A stretch of DNA of 64,000 bases from Halpernia frigidisoli. Lineage in GTDB: Bacteria; Bacteroidota; Bacteroidia; Flavobacteriales; Weeksellaceae. This document shows, piece by piece, positions 5,253 to 23,104 of this stretch (the stretch's first letter is position 1; every line of letters starts with the position of its first letter). A program made the position numbers and the translations under genes. Where the stretch lies: assembly GCF_900113805.1 (NCBI RefSeq), contig NZ_FOQT01000001.1, positions 1 through 64,000 on the forward strand, read 5' to 3'. The notes beneath the pieces are model-generated. The model did no database searches, had not been told where the DNA came from, and saw only the letters and a list, made by a program, of their open reading frames with translations.

Positions 5253-6278
5253 ATGGGAACAAGGAAAACACCCGGCGTGTATATTACTGAAATAAATGCC
5301 TTTCCAAATTCAGCAGTTGCAGTAGAATCTTCCATTCCAGCTTTTATTGGTTATACTGAAAAAGCAATTTATTTAAATAAATCTTATGTTAACAAGCCTT
5401 TACGAATTACCTCTTTTATTGAGTTTGAAATGTATTTTGGTAAAAATTGCCAGACATTATACGATTTGTCCTTAGCGAAACAGGAAACAAAATATGAAAA
5501 TAGTTTTGATTTTATTATAAACAATTTTGGTTATGAAATTATACAAGTCCGGGAAACGAAATTTAATTTATACAATTCTGTAAGATTTTTTTATCAAAAT
5601 GGAGGAGAAGTGATGTATATAATTTCCATAGGAACTTACGAAAATACATCTGATAAGAAGGTTTTTAGTGATCCGGCAATTTTTAAAAAGGCAATTGATC
5701 TGCTGAAAAATGAGGAAGAACCAACATTGCTTGTGATTCCTGAGACGGTTTTATTTGATTCACCAGACTGCAATACGATACAGGAATATATGCTTGCGCA
5801 TTGCGGTAAGGCAAAAAATAAGTTTGCAATATTAGATATTCATGACGGCTTTAAAAATCTAGACGATGCTGATAATAACCCAGTTAAAAACTTTAGATAT
5901 CAAATTACTTCTCAATATTTAAGTTATGGCGCGGCGTATTATCCGTGGGTAAATACGAATATTATCGATTCTTCAGAAATAAGTTTTAAAAATTTAACCA
6001 AAGAAGCGCGGCTAACTTTAGAAGAGATCTGCGAAGATGCCTTCATTAATTTAATTAATGAAAAAAAACAAAAAATAACTTCTGCGTTAGAATCGCTTTT
6101 GGCTTCAGATGATGTCATGGATGAAGCAGATCTAAAGGCAATTCACGAAACTTTGATGACGCTTATTCCGGGTTATAAATCTGTGATGGAAGCAATATCA
6201 GAACAGGAAAATTTATTACCGCCTTCCGGTGGTATTGCAGGGGTTTATACTTTTGTAGATAAATCACGGGGGGTTTGA
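5253..6278 (+). CDS. contractile tail sheath protein, N-terminal part
   Basis: This 341-codon frame encodes the N-terminal two thirds of a contractile-injection-system or phage tail sheath subunit. The start TRKTPGVYITEINAFPNSAVAVE and PAFIGYTEKA is the family hallmark, and the end GGIAGVYTFVDKSRGV is the segment that normally runs straight into W-KAPAN. The frame stops at TGA (6276-6278), exactly where the conserved Trp codon TGG is expected, and homology continues in the same frame. Sheath subunits polymerise around the inner tube and contract. By itself this part lacks the C-terminal domain that makes the core beta-sheet handshake. The start ATG follows an A/T-rich leader. Confidence 0.9.
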   Translation: MGTRKTPGVYITEINAFPNSAVAVESSIPAFIGYTEKAIYLNKSYVNKPLRITSFIEFEMYFGKNCQTLYDLSLAKQETKYENSFDFIINNFGYEIIQVRETKFNLYNSVRFFYQNGGEVMYIISIGTYENTSDKKVFSDPAIFKKAIDLLKNEEEPTLLVIPETVLFDSPDCNTIQEYMLAHCGKAKNKFAILDIHDGFKNLDDADNNPVKNFRYQITSQYLSYGAAYYPWVNTNIIDSSEISFKNLTKEARLTLEEICEDAFINLINEKKQKITSALESLLASDDVMDEADLKAIHETLMTLIPGYKSVMEAISEQENLLPPSGGIAGVYTFVDKSRGV

Positions 6279-6293
6279 AAAGCACCCGCAAAT

Positions 6294-6788
6294 ATGTCAT
6301 TAAACAGTGTTTTATCTCCGGCAGTTTCAATTAATAATGATAAGCAAACAGATTTAAATAATCCCTCAGATGGTAAATATATCTGCGCAATTCGAACTTT
6401 TCCTGTATTTGGTACTTTAATTTGGGGTGGAAGAACGCTCGATGGAAACAGTGTGGATTGGCGCTATATCAACGTTCGGCGCACAATGATCATGGTAGAA
6501 CAGTCTGTACAATTGGCGGTTAAAGCCTATGTTTTTGAACCCAATGATGCGAATACATGGGTGACGGTAAAATCAATGTTAAACAATTTTTTATTCAATC
6601 TCTGGAAACAAGGTGCTTTCGCAGGATCTGCGCCAGAAGAAGCCTTTAGCGTTTCCGTTGGTTTAGGCTCAACGATGACGCCAGATGATATTCTTGAGGG
6701 GAAAATGAATGTAAGTATTCTGGTGGCTATTTCCAAACCTTCAGAATTTATAATTTTTACATTTCAACTACAAATGCAACAATCCTAA
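6294..6788 (+). CDS. contractile tail sheath protein, C-terminal part
   Basis: This 164-codon frame matches the C-terminal sheath domain: GKYICAIRTFPVFGTLIWGGRTLDG, WRYINVRRTMIMVEQSVQ, VFEPND, FLFNLWKQGAFAGSAPEEAFSV and KPSEFIIFTFQ are all family landmarks. It is in the same frame as the N-terminal part, 15 bases past the TGA. The ATG at 6294 lies inside the conserved KAPANMSLN segment and has no evident ribosome binding site, so it is probably an internal Met rather than a true start. If translated separately it could only act as a partner of the upstream piece. Confidence 0.8.
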   Translation: MSLNSVLSPAVSINNDKQTDLNNPSDGKYICAIRTFPVFGTLIWGGRTLDGNSVDWRYINVRRTMIMVEQSVQLAVKAYVFEPNDANTWVTVKSMLNNFLFNLWKQGAFAGSAPEEAFSVSVGLGSTMTPDDILEGKMNVSILVAISKPSEFIIFTFQLQMQQS

Positions 6789-6820
6789 AAAACACAATTA
6801 AATTTAAATAACAATATATA

Positions 6821-7285
6821 ATGGCAGACAACGCGTCAGGAATAGATAATACACAATCCTCATTTCTCCATTTTTACTTCAAAGTGGATTTTGGCAATGG
6901 CATGGGAACTGCGTCTTTTCAGGAAGTTTCAGGGCTGGAAAAAGAACCACAGATTATTAAATACAGACATGGCGACGCTGCCGAATCTTCTTCTGTAAAA
7001 ATGCCAACTGTAGTAAAATACGGCAATATAACCCTTAAAAAAGGCATTATTAAAAAAAACCAAAGCGTTTTGACCTGGTTTTCTATGATGAAAATGAACA
7101 CTATAAAAAGAAGTACCGTTATCATCAGTTTGGTAGATGTTTATGATAAAGTGCAAATGACCTGGACTCTGAAAAATGCTTTTCCGGTTAAAATAGTTAG
7201 TACAGATTTAAAATCTAATGCTAAAGAAATGGCGATAGAAAATATTGAACTAGCCTACGAAAGTTTTACTATGCAAAATATATAA
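6821..7285 (+). CDS. contractile tail tube protein (T4 gp19/Hcp-like)
   Basis: A 154-residue inner-tube subunit of a contractile tail. FYFKVDFGNGMGTASFQEVSGLEKEPQIIKYRHGD is the classic opening of the conserved phage tail region family (gp19-like), and VVKYGNITLKKGI plus the end ENIELAYESFTM complete the beta-barrel fold. Tube rings stack inside the sheath and are expelled on contraction. It starts 32 bases after the sheath gene and is clearly in the same transcript. Length is normal and the frame is intact. No baseplate, spike, LysM, DUF4255 or AAA ATPase gene, which usually accompany such genes, is visible on either side. Confidence 0.92.
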   Translation: MADNASGIDNTQSSFLHFYFKVDFGNGMGTASFQEVSGLEKEPQIIKYRHGDAAESSSVKMPTVVKYGNITLKKGIIKKNQSVLTWFSMMKMNTIKRSTVIISLVDVYDKVQMTWTLKNAFPVKIVSTDLKSNAKEMAIENIELAYESFTMQNI

Positions 7286-18789: not shown

Positions 18790-19366
18790 TAGTAAAAAAT
18801 CAAAAAAATCAAACACCATGATACCATCTAATAATCCTTTCTCTCCTGCATAATCCCTTGCACTGCTGTAAACATAATCTTCTGCTTTATAAACCAAACC
18901 GCTTTCCACAGGATTTTGATGCACGTAATCTATCTTTTGTTTTATGACTTTGTTGCTCCAAAGTTCTATAGGCTTATTGTCGTGACGCCAAAATTGGTGT
19001 CCGTTAACATTAGAACTTTTTCCTGCTTCTTTTTTGAAAAACTCTAAATAAAAATTCTTTTCTGCTTTCTCTGGGATTTTCTGTAATGGCCTTAACTAAA
19101 CTCTTACTGGTAAATCTTTTTAAATCTCCAATCAGTAGTTCTGGTTTTTGCCCTTTTACACTTCTAAAAACCAAATGAATGTGACTTGTCATTATGCACC
19201 AGGCGTGGATTTCTAAACCTTTTTCTTTCTGGCAAAATACCACACTTTCTAAAAACAAATCTTTGTATTCATTTCGTGTAAAAACATCCAGCCAGCCAAC
19301 AACAGCAAAACTTATAAAATATAAACCTTCAGGATTTAAAAATTTGTAATTTCTGCTCATCTGCAA
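18787..19366 (-). pseudogene. REP-associated tyrosine transposase (RAYT), frameshifted
   Basis: This is an IS200/IS605-related RAYT that processes REP sequences. The first frame (19366 to 19010, 118 codons) contains the HUH-type metal site in IMTSHIHLVF. Homology then leaves that frame near RKEF and continues in the next frame with FFKKEAGKSSNVNGHQFWRHD, IELWSNKVIKQKIDYVHQNPVESGLVYK and YAGEKGLLDG, ending at 18787. DYVHQNPV carries the likely catalytic Tyr. One base too many in the A5 run at 19050-19054 explains the shift. REP hairpins lie on both sides. Intact, it would be about 190 residues. Confidence 0.85.
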
Positions 19367-19423
19367 CTTTCAAGTAATAAAGATAGACGAAAATTCCAAA
19401 CTAAAATTTGGTTGCTAATTTAT

Positions 19424-19588
19424 GATGACCACACGATGCAATCGTGCGGCAGCGAAGGAATTAAAAATTTGACTGGTTATTTATTGTGACCACACTATGC
19501 AATCGTGCGGCAGCGGGGCAGCGAAGGAATTAAAAATTTGACTGGTTATTTATTGTGACCACACGATGCAATCGTGCGGCAGCGGGGG
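19424..19588 (+). repeat. three REP hairpins with a 69-bp tandem duplication
   Basis: Copies of the REP core TGACCACACGATGCAATCGTG plus CGGCAGCG lie at 19424-19454, 19486-19515 and 19555-19584. CACGAT pairs with ATCGTG around GCA; the middle copy has CACTAT and so a weakened stem. Positions 19451-19519 and 19520-19588 are an almost exact direct repeat with a 69-base period. They are in inverted orientation relative to the REP at 18760-18789 and are the expected substrate of the RAYT. Confidence 0.85.
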
Positions 19589-19624: not shown

Positions 19625-20308
19625 CTAGAGTTCCTTTTCATGAAGAAAACCATTTTCATGATTTTCTATCCTTAAATCAAATTCATGTTTAGTTTTAATG
19701 CCGTTCATTTTCTGACTATTAAGTTGTGGCTTGAATTCGTCAATCATTCTTGATTCGATATCTTCAAGAATTTCTAAACCTAATTTTTTTTCTTTAATAA
19801 ACTCTAAAGGTAGATAGTAATCGTTTGTTGTGTACAGAATTATATTACATAATATTATAGTTTTTTCGTAACCGTCAAATTTTGGATCTAATAGTTTTAT
19901 AGCAGTATTGTGCCCCCCTCTGAATCTTGAAATGTTAGAGGAACTTTTTCCAATGTACACGATTTCTCGATTTTCATCTTTCTTTATGCATATTATATAA
20001 ATTGGATAGGATATATTGGGTGCGTCACCCAAAGCTTCTCTTATATTATATATATCTTCGTGGTCAAGACTAGTACTCTCGTATCGATGCGCTATTTTTA
20101 TAGCTTTATAATAATAAGTTCTATTTTTATCGAACGAATCTGCGAAACCTAATATTTTCTCATCGTTAATTTTGTGCAATGGTATTTCGTCAACTACGTT
20201 AATCCAAAAACCAGTACAATAGTCGGGCTCGCTTTTTATGAGATCATCATAATGCGGAATCATTTCATGTCCATTTAGCCAAGCATCTAAGTATGAAAAT
20301 TTTTTCAT
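19625..20308 (-). CDS. GIY-YIG-type nuclease, third gene of a candidate defence operon
   Basis: A 227-residue protein. The N-terminal 95 residues are not recognised. From about 100 on, the GIY-YIG fold can be read: IYIICI at 103-108 in place of GIY, VYIG at 117-120, Arg128/Arg130 and His133 in SRFRGGH, and an acidic helix ending EFKPQLN (191-197) as in many GIY-YIG nucleases (acidic residue, P, N). It would cut DNA or RNA in the cytosol. It follows the ATPase gene by 37 bases on the same strand and is the likely last gene of the operon. The nuclease call rests on motifs, so it is moderately sure; target unknown. Confidence 0.7.
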   Translation of the reverse strand: MKKFSYLDAWLNGHEMIPHYDDLIKSEPDYCTGFWINVVDEIPLHKINDEKILGFADSFDKNRTYYYKAIKIAHRYESTSLDHEDIYNIREALGDAPNISYPIYIICIKKDENREIVYIGKSSSNISRFRGGHNTAIKLLDPKFDGYEKTIILCNIILYTTNDYYLPLEFIKEKKLGLEILEDIESRMIDEFKPQLNSQKMNGIKTKHEFDLRIENHENGFLHEKEL

Positions 20309-20345
20309 ATATATTCTTTAAAGTATAATTCTGAGTGCAATTAAT

Positions 20346-22766
20346 TTAATTAAATTTCTCATCTAATTTTAGATTTAGATTTCCACAATTACATCTTACA
20401 TATTCCGTGTTACTAATACTTTCATAATGGCAATATGATTTGCAGTCTGGACAATACATTTCAGCTTCAATCTCAAGCCATTTTTTAAATATTGATTCAA
20501 TTTCTTGCGAAGTAAATTGTGAAGATTCATCTTTCCAGTGAGCGCAATAATTCCGAAAGATTGTTCCTTGTTCAAATTCCCCAAACAATATTGAAATTTT
20601 ATGTTGCTTATTTGGAGATTTTAACTTGTCTTTAATTCTCTTTACTAACGGTTCATAAAATTCAGAAAGTGTATATGTGTTTTCTAATTTATACCGCATT
20701 GGTGTTTGTAAATTTTCATTTATAATTCCAAAAACCATTTCAAGATATCTACCTAATTTTTGACCAGCTCCAATGGGATCATCGTCAATAATTAGCTTTT
20801 CTATTTCTTCAGTGTAGTTATTTGAAAAATTACATCTAGGACCAGTTGTATAATCCCAACTGGAAAATTTATACCTATTCCATTGAGGAAAATGTCTTTG
20901 CATTGTATCAAAAAACACTTGGTCGTGAGTAAGCATTAAGATTTGAAAATCACCGAATTTAGCCGCTAATAATTGAGCAACTTTTGGTCTTTTAAAAGCA
21001 TCAAAACTATTTACAACATCATCTAAAATCATAAACTTGAAGTTTGAATTAAAGTGCTTTACAGCCGCTAGAAAAATTGAAAGTCCAAAGCTGTTAATTT
21101 GACTTTCACTCATAAATTTATATGCTGGTGTAATTTTTTCATTTACAAAATCAATTTCTAACTCTACAGCTTTATCTTTTCCAACTACTAATTTTATTTC
21201 AGGATTTTTCAAAAATTGGTTTGTTCCTTCTAGAAAATTATAGCATTCTATTAAATCAGTTTGTATTTGTGTGAAAGTATGTTGAATTTGAGCTTGAATA
21301 AACTCTGTTAATTTCGAAAACAAAATACCAAGTTTGTCGCAGATGTCCGATAAATAATTAATCTTTTTTTCATTTCTTAAGTAGCTTGTGTAAGCTACTT
21401 TCAATTGAATTAAGTTACTAAAATCTATTGCTAATTTTGTGGTTTTTTCATCTTCGGAGAATGACTTAATTAAATCTAATACAAATTGTTTATAAGTTAT
21501 TTCCATATCACTTATATTATCAATTTTTGAGACTTCATCTAATATGCTTAAATCAAGTGAAGTTACATCTTTTAACTGCGTTTTTAATATTGCAAGGATT
21601 TTAGGTATTTCTATTTCTAATTTATCGATATCCTCATAAAACAAAGCAAAACTTTCTTTTACTCTCGGACTTTTTTCTGATTGTATGATTGCTACTTTAT
21701 GATTTAATTGTTCAAATTTTTTTATAAGCGCATCTCTTTTTAAAATGTAATCTTGCCTCTTATTATTTAATTCTTCTAATGCCTTATGTTTTAAAGCAAT
21801 ATGCTCTTCTAAATTTCCTTCAAATAATTTATCACAGATTGGGCAAGTTGATTTGTCTTCAAGATGTAAAAGAGTTTCCTTTGCCGTTGTATATAAGTCT
21901 ATTAGAATTAGTTTGGTAATGTTTGTTTCGTCTTTTTTTAAATCATTGAAAACATTTTCTAAATCTTGCAAATCTTGTTTAACTTTAGAAATAGGGTAGA
22001 ATTGATTTAAACGTAATAAAAATGAATTCCATTCATTTAATGCAGTCGCTATCGGATTTGCCTTTACAATTTCAGAAAGAGCTTTCTCGACTTTATAAAT
22101 GTGTTTGTATTCAGTAATTTCTTCAATATGATATTTTTTTGCAATGTCATTAATAAACAAAATTACTTTTAATTCATCTATTTCTTGTATTTCAGTAATT
22201 GAGGAAATAGCTTTTTTATTTTCTTCAATTTGTACTTTATATTGAGGTAATTGAGTTGAAATCCTTGTGAAACTTGCTTGAATATCTGATTGATTTTTTG
22301 TGAATTTTTCTAAACCAAAAAATTTAGCAATGTATTTATATTTTTCACCTTTAGTTTTAAATACAAATTCTTGTAAGTCAGAATATCTCAAAAAATTTGG
22401 ATATACAGTATAATTCTTAAATTCTGCATATTCTCCTGAATTAATTGGAGAAGTTACTCTTGTTTTATTATATTGAGCTCTTACGGAATTTATAGTTGTA
22501 TGTGAAAAGTCAACATTTACATATACATTATCTCCATTACTTAATTTGTGAGGATAATCCTTTTCAGAAACACCTTCTTTAGTTAAAAATTCAATTTTGG
22601 AATTTATTAACCATTCCCAAGAATCTACTATGGAACTTTTTCCAGTTCCGTTTCTACCGTAAATTAGAGCAGATGTTGAATTATTTCCCTTAACAAAATC
22701 AAGTATTACTGGAGATTTTATCCCGCGAAAATTTTCAACTGTAATTTTATTGATTTTCAGCATCAT
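20346..22766 (-). CDS. SMC/Rad50-like ATPase with zinc motif and HEPN-like C-terminus
   Basis: An 806-residue ABC-type ATPase. Walker A is GRNGTGKS (37-44), the ABC signature SESQINSFGLS (553-563), Walker B FMILDD (578-583; Asp in place of the usual catalytic Glu), the D-loop SFD (587-589) and the H-loop His614 in LTHD. Between them lies a helical, probably coiled-coil arm with CPIC (Cys308, Cys311) and His322/His327, a hook or zinc-finger-like site. The C-terminus is helical (about 660-765) with RNYCAH (Arg738, His743), which fits the HEPN ribonuclease motif RNxxxH, then a zinc ribbon (Cys772, Cys775, Cys792, Cys794). Such a layout recalls RloC- and Lamassu-type defence ATPases. The start ATG overlaps the upstream 66-codon gene by 20 bases. 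Confidence 0.85.
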   Translation of the reverse strand: MMLKINKITVENFRGIKSPVILDFVKGNNSTSALIYGRNGTGKSSIVDSWEWLINSKIEFLTKEGVSEKDYPHKLSNGDNVYVNVDFSHTTINSVRAQYNKTRVTSPINSGEYAEFKNYTVYPNFLRYSDLQEFVFKTKGEKYKYIAKFFGLEKFTKNQSDIQASFTRISTQLPQYKVQIEENKKAISSITEIQEIDELKVILFINDIAKKYHIEEITEYKHIYKVEKALSEIVKANPIATALNEWNSFLLRLNQFYPISKVKQDLQDLENVFNDLKKDETNITKLILIDLYTTAKETLLHLEDKSTCPICDKLFEGNLEEHIALKHKALEELNNKRQDYILKRDALIKKFEQLNHKVAIIQSEKSPRVKESFALFYEDIDKLEIEIPKILAILKTQLKDVTSLDLSILDEVSKIDNISDMEITYKQFVLDLIKSFSEDEKTTKLAIDFSNLIQLKVAYTSYLRNEKKINYLSDICDKLGILFSKLTEFIQAQIQHTFTQIQTDLIECYNFLEGTNQFLKNPEIKLVVGKDKAVELEIDFVNEKITPAYKFMSESQINSFGLSIFLAAVKHFNSNFKFMILDDVVNSFDAFKRPKVAQLLAAKFGDFQILMLTHDQVFFDTMQRHFPQWNRYKFSSWDYTTGPRCNFSNNYTEEIEKLIIDDDPIGAGQKLGRYLEMVFGIINENLQTPMRYKLENTYTLSEFYEPLVKRIKDKLKSPNKQHKISILFGEFEQGTIFRNYCAHWKDESSQFTSQEIESIFKKWLEIEAEMYCPDCKSYCHYESISNTEYVRCNCGNLNLKLDEKFN

Positions 22767-22947
22767 TTTCTGGTTTTAATAATTCATTTATTTCAGTATC
22801 GATTTTTTGCAAACCAATGGCAACTTTTCTTTCAAACTCTAATCCATTGAATCCAGAATCTGAAAAATAAGGTTCCAATTTAATTATGAATGTTTCAAGA
22901 TTTGTATTTTCAATTTTTGTTTGTTCTAGCCAAGTTTTAAATTCCAT
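22747..22947 (-). CDS. small protein, first gene of the candidate defence operon
   Basis: A 66-residue acidic protein of unknown family with helix-like spacing (TWLEQTKIENTNLETFIIKLEPYF, EFERKVAIGLQKIDTEINELL). It has no Cys, no membrane segment and no signal peptide. The frame overlaps the ATPase start by 20 bases, which suggests translational coupling and that the product works with the ATPase, perhaps as an antitoxin-like regulator or small subunit. That role is only inferred from position. A dispersed stem-loop element lies just upstream at 23008-23104. Confidence 0.65.
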   Translation of the reverse strand: MEFKTWLEQTKIENTNLETFIIKLEPYFSDSGFNGLEFERKVAIGLQKIDTEINELLKPENDAENQ

Positions 22948-23007
22948 AGTTGAATTATTATTAATTTAATAAAATGTTTTCTGTAAGTTACAATAACCCT
23001 CAATTCT

Positions 23008-23104
23008 AGCCCCGATAGAAATGGATATCCTTTTTTGTTCGACAAAAAAGATAGGAATGATAGCGGGAACCATCTTCAAAAAAAGCGAAAACCGTCTTGC
23101 TCCT
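23008..23104 (+). repeat. dispersed stem-loop element, copy 2
   Basis: AGCCCCGATAGAAATGG, CCTTTTTTGT, loop TCG, ACAAAAAAG and TAGCGGGA, with CTTGCTCCT about 40 bases on. This copy has a shorter loop than the others, so the inner hairpin is very tight. It separates the accessory operon from tex. Confidence 0.75.

Follow-up and report, generated by a model that had tools for sequence, protein, structure and literature searches.

What kind of unit is formed by three tightly packed genes on the minus strand of the Halpernia frigidisoli genome (3.02 Mb in 11 contigs), and is it directed against phages? The genes are found in the first 64,000 nucleotides of contig NZ_FOQT01000001.1, a stretch called the window in the following, and encode in this order proteins of 66 amino acids (aa; 22747-22947), 806 aa (20346-22766) and 227 aa (19625-20308). 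In the initial annotation they were described as a candidate anti-phage cassette composed of a small protein, a Rad50/SMC-like ATPase and a GIY-YIG nuclease. The lengths given there, as well as the overlap of 20 bases between the small gene and the ATPase gene and the gap of 37 bases between the ATPase gene and the GIY-YIG gene, are exactly reproduced. However, the conserved unit is not the trio but a duo of the small protein and the Rad50-like zinc-hook ABC ATPase of about 800 aa. This duo is widespread and, as far as was searched, undescribed. We consider it moderately probable that it represents a two-gene defence module of the RloC/PrrC kind. The best reading of the sequences is an RloC-like RNase toxin with a zinc-ribbon tail and a small partner, which probably serves as a back-up to restriction systems. 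Of the proposed cassette, a variable, defence-type locus and a real small partner remain, while the combination of ATPase and GIY-YIG protein in a trio is unsupported.

The features of the duo are (window coordinates):
22747..22947, minus strand: first duo gene, encoding a small acidic protein of 66 aa (net charge -7) that is assigned by position, size and charge only
20346..22766, minus strand: ABC ATPase of 806 aa, Rad50-like with a zinc hook, which ends in an RloC-like C-terminal domain and a zinc ribbon
22635..22658, minus strand: Walker A motif GRNGTGKS, residues 37-44
21834..21845, minus strand: CPIC zinc hook, residues 308-311
20457..20849, minus strand: RloC/PrrC-like (HEPN-type) domain, approximately residues 640-770
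20739..20750, minus strand: R673-Y-L-E676, putative active-site helix with the invariant E676
20538..20555, minus strand: R738-N739-Y-C-A-H743, HEPN-type Rx4H motif (motif definition from PMC3710099) with invariant N and H
20385..20453, minus strand: C-terminal zinc ribbon C772-x2-C775 ... C792-x-C794, a pattern present in 38 of 43 aligned rows

Relatives were not obtained by the first single-sequence scans, but by scans based on alignments. A tblastn search against plasmids revealed the ATPase in 44 records, in 15 of which one match spans 80% or more of the protein, and the full-length plasmid ATPases among the matches listed are about 19-23% identical to that of the window. The genome scan with the ATPase alignment yielded 48 loci. 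The members named in the tree represent ten or more bacterial phyla and one phylum of archaea. Among the genomes of the phylum the ATPase was detected in 7 of 395 at E≤1e-20, the window's own genome included and three of the matches being partial.

The small gene is a regular companion of these ATPases, lying just before the ATPase gene and in most cases overlapping it. An open reading frame (ORF) of 50-100 aa which ends between -30 and +60 bases from the ATPase start is present in 40 of 44 family members (window included), compared to 38 of 230 other ORFs of at least 300 aa in the same loci, these controls being ORFs and not curated genes. Excluded from this count were hits scoring 150 bits or lower, nine ATPases without a start settable by the FRG motif, three copies of the window itself (L001, L002 and L068), L069 on the reverse strand, L045 as a near-duplicate, and L041, which is located too near a contig end but has the small ORF. 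In nine of ten plasmid regions examined a short 'hypothetical protein' gene is annotated over the ATPase start, and in the tenth the ORF exists unannotated. Acidic proteins prevail among the 47 small proteins that were collected (41 with net negative charge; median charge of the set -5), and the subfamilies are mostly joined by profile comparison (5.5e-9, 6.9e-8 and 7.9e-4; two pairs only at 0.044-0.048).

The assignment of the larger protein to the Rad50/SMC-like ATPases holds, as it matches Pfam SMC_N with 51.7 bits (cut-off 40, E 9.7e-14). Its AlphaFold model, which has a mean pLDDT (predicted local distance difference test) of 78.7, comprises a Rad50/SMC-like head, a coiled coil, a helical C-terminal domain and the ribbon. 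The structural ranking is led by Rad50 and SMC heads (Z about 25; Foldseek E 2.7e-13), and Lamassu LmuB and JetABC are also found among the Foldseek matches. A CPxC zinc hook is kept in all 43 aligned rows; RloC likewise has a CxxC hook insert. The PADLOC matches of the protein all end by residue 628, those of the PtuA, AriA and GajA models falling on ABC-head regions, and the tail is covered by no PADLOC match and by no Pfam match above cut-off.

Judged from conserved residues and profile comparison, this C-terminal domain looks remotely related to the anticodon-nuclease (HEPN) domain of RloC and PrrC. E676, N739 and H743 (pattern E...N-x3/4-H) are invariant in the 43 rows, among which are the near-identical pairs L013/L040 and L025/L078. 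In addition, one arginine is found either four positions before the glutamate (28 rows) or directly before the asparagine (15 rows), never at both places and never at neither. The 28 rows thereby show the triad form R-x3-E...N-x3-H. The other 15, including the window protein with R738-N-Y-C-A-H743, show the form RN...H, which is the HEPN motif Rx4-6H with a polar residue after R. The swap of the arginine goes back to few events, with two main clades and the window protein, which groups with the first clade and has the second form; the 43 rows are therefore not 43 independent observations. The triad tested by mutation in RloC is R692, E696 and H737, that is R-x3-E...H (PMC2610378), and for HEPN domains the motif Rx4-6H with a polar residue after R is given, RNx3-4H being the canonical form (PMC3710099). 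A plain canonical HEPN domain in every member was considered and rejected, as the arginine of RNx3H is absent in 28 of the 43 rows, an absence which is resolved by the alternative arginine these rows carry at the E-4 position.

As a stand-in for RloC we used 20 proteins of 722-794 aa obtained via Pfam AAA_13, 17 of which contain R-x3-E followed by [N or H]-x3-H (N in 15, H in two). When the tail profile was compared with the RloC profile by hhalign, a score of 33.7 resulted (E 1.1e-4, counted for one comparison), in contrast to at most 16.4 for 40 column shuffles and 10.5 for the reversed profile. The score did not exceed 17.9 for RloC slices short of the C-terminal domain and 16.4 for slices of the new family without the tail. 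R-x3-E lies inside the 43 confidently aligned columns, and N-x3-H registers on N-x3-H once the alignment is extended. The signal is carried by the rows outside the group that is embedded in restriction-modification (R-M) operons or comes from Hymenobacter (23 rows, window included, E 4.8e-4). The profile of the 20 RloC-type proteins matches 15 of the 43 family members, with 8.9e-10 as the best value. AAA_13 (PF13166) itself is not among the Pfam matches of the window protein at E≤10 and has no match in the window's genome at 1e-20. For one RloC-type protein, no chain of the PDB was matched at E≤0.001.

Several copies of the duo are placed within defence operons. In L018 the duo is located between pglX and pglZ of an archaeal operon of bacteriophage exclusion (BREX) type 5, in L047 after the HsdM gene, in L063 directly before the HsdR gene, in L051 between a DrmD-like SNF2 helicase and type III Mod and Res, and in L070 between a DrmD-like helicase and an AIPR/AbiU-like protein. 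RloC-family members are reported from Pgl operons 'in a few instances' (PMC3710099). Other copies of the duo, on plasmids as well as on chromosomes, stand alone beside mixed genes (conjugation, ribonucleotide reductase, UvrB, MmeI-type, PIN-TPR, TniQ, DarT/RES). Together the nearest neighbours, 77 proteins after omission of one open-ended ORF (L046:2-4060) from the 78 chosen, match 185 PADLOC models at E≤1e-20, of which 25 were listed, and 80 control genes match 3; these are numbers of models and not of proteins, related PADLOC models overlap, and the controls come from 20 arbitrary Bacteroidota stretches while the neighbours come from many phyla.

The tree places the window protein together with stand-alone copies at a support of 98/97, though its branch is long. 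The operon-embedded label, which was set as 'R-M embedded' for 12 rows (L042, L050, L055, L071 and L080 labelled from gene layout), needs at least four changes on the tree, and stand-alone plasmid copies are nested among the embedded ones. The duo therefore seems to move in and out of R-M/BREX-type operons. A recurrent gene order was seen in L051, L061, L080, L055 and L059, which originate from Acidobacteria, Bacteroidetes, Nitrospira and a viral contig: a large helicase-sized gene, the small protein, the ABC ATPase and a type III Mod, in part followed by Res. This layout, for which L051 was fully scanned and the Mod of L061 was scanned, the rest being based on gene sizes or pooled scans, may represent a distinct R-M-like system.

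The locus itself is variable and of unusual composition. As stated in the initial annotation, the genes are AT-rich compared to tex: the GC content is 0.272 for the ATPase gene and 0.259 for the small gene, against 0.42 for tex and 0.337 for the whole window. At third codon positions (GC3) the ATPase gene has 0.175, which is the lowest value among the 56 window genes listed (background 0.307), and the small gene, which is outside that list, has 0.134. The ATPase is absent from the only other genome of the genus that was examined. This sister genome keeps the typA-tex region and the Flavo-1 stretch next to it. Homology then ends at 23002, at a distance of 55 bases from the small gene, and beyond this window position the sister genome is rearranged and carries other genes.

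The likely effector of the duo is the RloC-like C-terminal domain of the ATPase itself. As we infer them, RNase activity, substrate, trigger, the role of the small protein and the defence against phages would be connected as follows. The ABC/zinc-hook part would sense DNA or the loss of a restriction system. Upon infection the RNase would be released and would cut tRNA or other RNA, and phage growth would stop. For the small protein, which is acidic in most cases, a role in keeping the enzyme inactive or in sensing the trigger is probable.

A number of observations weigh against this reading. The similarity of the tail to RloC is remote (HH probability 56%), the reverse search with the family profile matches only one of the 20 RloC proteins, and the R-M-embedded/Hymenobacter group alone (11 rows) reaches only 0.21. 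No HEPN family was among the matches listed (25 of 33 families) when 34 tails were searched against Pfam, and the comparison of the tail with PDB sequences gave nothing convincing. The window protein itself has no arginine at E-4, and its putative active-site stretch, residues 735-744, is modelled with a pLDDT below 50. Four of the 44 members are without the small ORF; these are shorter ATPases of 584-613 aa. The small protein of the window is not recognised by a profile built from the remaining 46 (0.1 bits, rank five among 112 small ORFs), so that only its position, overlap, size and charge place it in the family. Moreover, many stand-alone copies adjoin non-defence genes such as those for ribonucleotide reductase, UvrB and conjugation.

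The remaining gene of the cluster and the element at its other border are:
19625..20308, minus strand: GIY-YIG-like protein, 227 aa, member of phrog_16890, a neighbour which is probably outside the duo
23004..23074, plus strand: Flavo-1 RNA element (RF01705), at whose edge (23002) the homology to the sister genome ends

The assignment of the 227 aa protein as a GIY-YIG nuclease is weak by Pfam, where GIY_YIG_2 remains with 18.2 bits below its cut-off of 22.4, but this model is hit at E≤0.1 by all four family members scanned (0.0026 at best). The protein also matches a phage endonuclease PHROG (3.1e-4), and the GIY-YIG residues P-I-Y, Y-I-G, R128, E185 and N197 are invariant in both small alignments. 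The match to phrog_16890, an uncharacterised phage family, is nearly full-length (7-224, E 4e-27). The structure model (pLDDT 68) has no structural match at E≤0.001, and the GIY-YIG domain of UvrC appears weakly in Foldseek (E about 0.1). Relatives are encoded by seven plasmid records (one Alkalihalophilus, six Klebsiella) and three viral contigs. As a single gene, phrog_16890 occurs in L012, a plasmid of Klebsiella that also carries a RepFIB gene, and in the viral contigs L075, L076 and L077. The protein is present in none of 385 other genomes of the phylum, and among 395 genomes of the order one other has a weak partial match (8e-4).

It is quite unlikely that the three genes form one defence operon in the manner of Lamassu or Septu, with DNA being sensed by the small protein and the ATPase and with the GIY-YIG protein as effector nuclease. 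The genes share one strand with a gap of only 37 bases, the GIY-YIG residues are conserved, and pairs of ATPase and nuclease are common in defence. Two of the five other GIY-YIG loci examined even have an ATPase gene within about 3 kb, namely a 381 aa AAA ATPase in L011 and a 639 aa protein annotated as Rad50 in L012. However, neither of these ATPases matches the profile of the duo, which is absent from all five loci, and conversely the GIY-YIG profile finds no homologue in the loci of the duo's relatives (flanks of at most about 7 kb). The GC3 of the GIY-YIG gene (0.263) is outside the ten lowest in the 56-gene list and thus lacks the extreme values of the duo, and an effector-like domain is already contained in the ATPase. 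The trio was rejected as a unit on the grounds of these loci and of GC3. As the most likely reading, the GIY-YIG gene is a passenger independent of the duo.

Two further explanations accept the duo but not the toxin. It could be a non-enzymatic SMC-like DNA clamp or looper, with a small protein of kleisin or DndE type and with E, N and H being structural or ligand-binding. This would agree with the Rad50/SMC heads as best-ranked solved folds and with the described pair of CxC ATPase and DndE with a disordered small protein (PMC10853773). However, one alternating arginine together with three invariant residues, aligned to an RNase triad tested by mutation, exceeds structural need, and we regard this explanation as unlikely. 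Far less probable still is a mobile housekeeping or repair factor similar to SbcC/Rad50. Some neighbours are indeed repair or nucleotide genes (UvrB, ribonucleotide reductase), and several plasmid copies carry the automatic Gene Ontology tag 'double-strand break repair'. Yet the ATPase is rare and patchy in the phylum and absent from the genus mate, and the duo is borne on plasmids and inserted into BREX and R-M operons.

If the duo is the RloC/PrrC-like module which we favour, it may belong to an undescribed family of ABC-HEPN RNases. In this tentative proposal, about which we are less confident, nearly every toxin carries a zinc ribbon at its tail and is paired with a small acidic protein of its own, which would act as silencer or as phage sensor. 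The catalytic arginine would have hopped between two helices, and this would connect the RloC/PrrC triad R-x3-E...H with the canonical HEPN motif RNx3-4H. The duo would be an interchangeable fail-safe in BREX, type I, type III and DrmD-type systems and on plasmids. Such a family would be a broad addition to the back-up toxins of the tRNase type. It would explain a pair annotated as 'AAA family ATPase + hypothetical protein', now tagged as repair, which recurs on plasmids and within BREX/R-M operons. It would also provide a natural experiment on the rebuilding of a HEPN active site, whose arginine can come from one or the other of two helices, and would offer a small off-switch or sensor protein.

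The remaining surroundings of the genes were clarified in part. The dispersed stem-loop element which was noticed upstream is real and is the known Flavo-1 RNA (63.6 bits), with many short similar stretches in the sister genome. Of the REP/RAYT debris (repetitive extragenic palindromes and their associated tyrosine transposase) on the other side, the REP-like repeats of 69 bases at 19387-19585 are confirmed, while the 118 aa ORF at 19010-19366 only looks like a RAYT fragment from reading of the ORF. At 5253-7285 of the window three plus-strand genes read like contractile-tail (sheath/tube) proteins and are perhaps an injection-system or tail-like cluster.

In the literature searched we found no description of the duo, although a mention in the ABC ATPase classification of Krishnan et al. 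2020 is possible, and the excerpts of PMC12839542, PMC10853773, PMC2610378 and PMC3710099 do not describe a pair of small protein and ABC ATPase. The earlier statement that no named system with exactly this trio is known agrees with our searches, in which none with this content was found. For Menshen nothing relevant was found. Lamassu LmuB is the best PADLOC match of the ATPase (1.1e-20) and a Foldseek match as well, in both cases via the SMC-type head, but the best LmuB match spans only residues 3-282. The two adjacent genes match no PADLOC family at E≤10, so that LmuA and LmuC are not found there; neither PADLOC nor Pfam reveals the partners of Septu, PARIS and Gabija (PtuB HNH, AriB TOPRIM, GajB) in them. 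The labels Lamassu and MADS were rejected, as the PADLOC matches of the window protein end before the tail and the mad3 model also matches controls. This model (PDLC04135) matches three of the 80 control genes at E≤1e-20 (best 4.8e-48) and therefore looks unspecific.

The system of CxC ABC ATPase and DndE (PbeABCD), a described pair with an accompanying disordered small protein, resembles the duo in combining a zinc-hook ABC ATPase with a fast-evolving small protein near helicases and methylases (PMC10853773). In contrast to PbeABCD, the hook of the duo is CPxC and not CxC, and its ATPase has the HEPN-like tail and the zinc ribbon. The PbeC models match the window ATPase only within residues 3-101, and no DndE or HKD domain was detected in 19 neighbour proteins scanned with Pfam.

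RloC shares with the ATPase of the duo the ABC head, a single CxxC zinc hook placed in the first half of the protein, a similar length and, in 28 of the 43 rows, the C-terminal R-x3-E ... N-x3-H. The spacing from E to H is 66-85 in the new family versus 41 in RloC. None of 19 RloC genes has a small upstream ORF, unlike the duo, and the second CxxC is absent in 19 of 20 RloC-type proteins, which means that RloC is without such a zinc ribbon. PrrC, the anticodon nuclease of the PrrI type Ic R-M locus, lacks the zinc-hook insert of RloC (PMC2610378). It is an ABC-HEPN toxin which, as some copies of the duo are, is sited in an R-M operon, where it forms a second line of defence; the type Ic R-M partner keeps it silent, and the toxin is set free once a phage disables this partner (PMC3710099). 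The duo differs from PrrC by its small partner gene and by its contexts, which include BREX-5, type III R-M and stand-alone plasmids. By analogy, the R-M and BREX contexts suggest that the same logic of silencing and release may apply to the duo.

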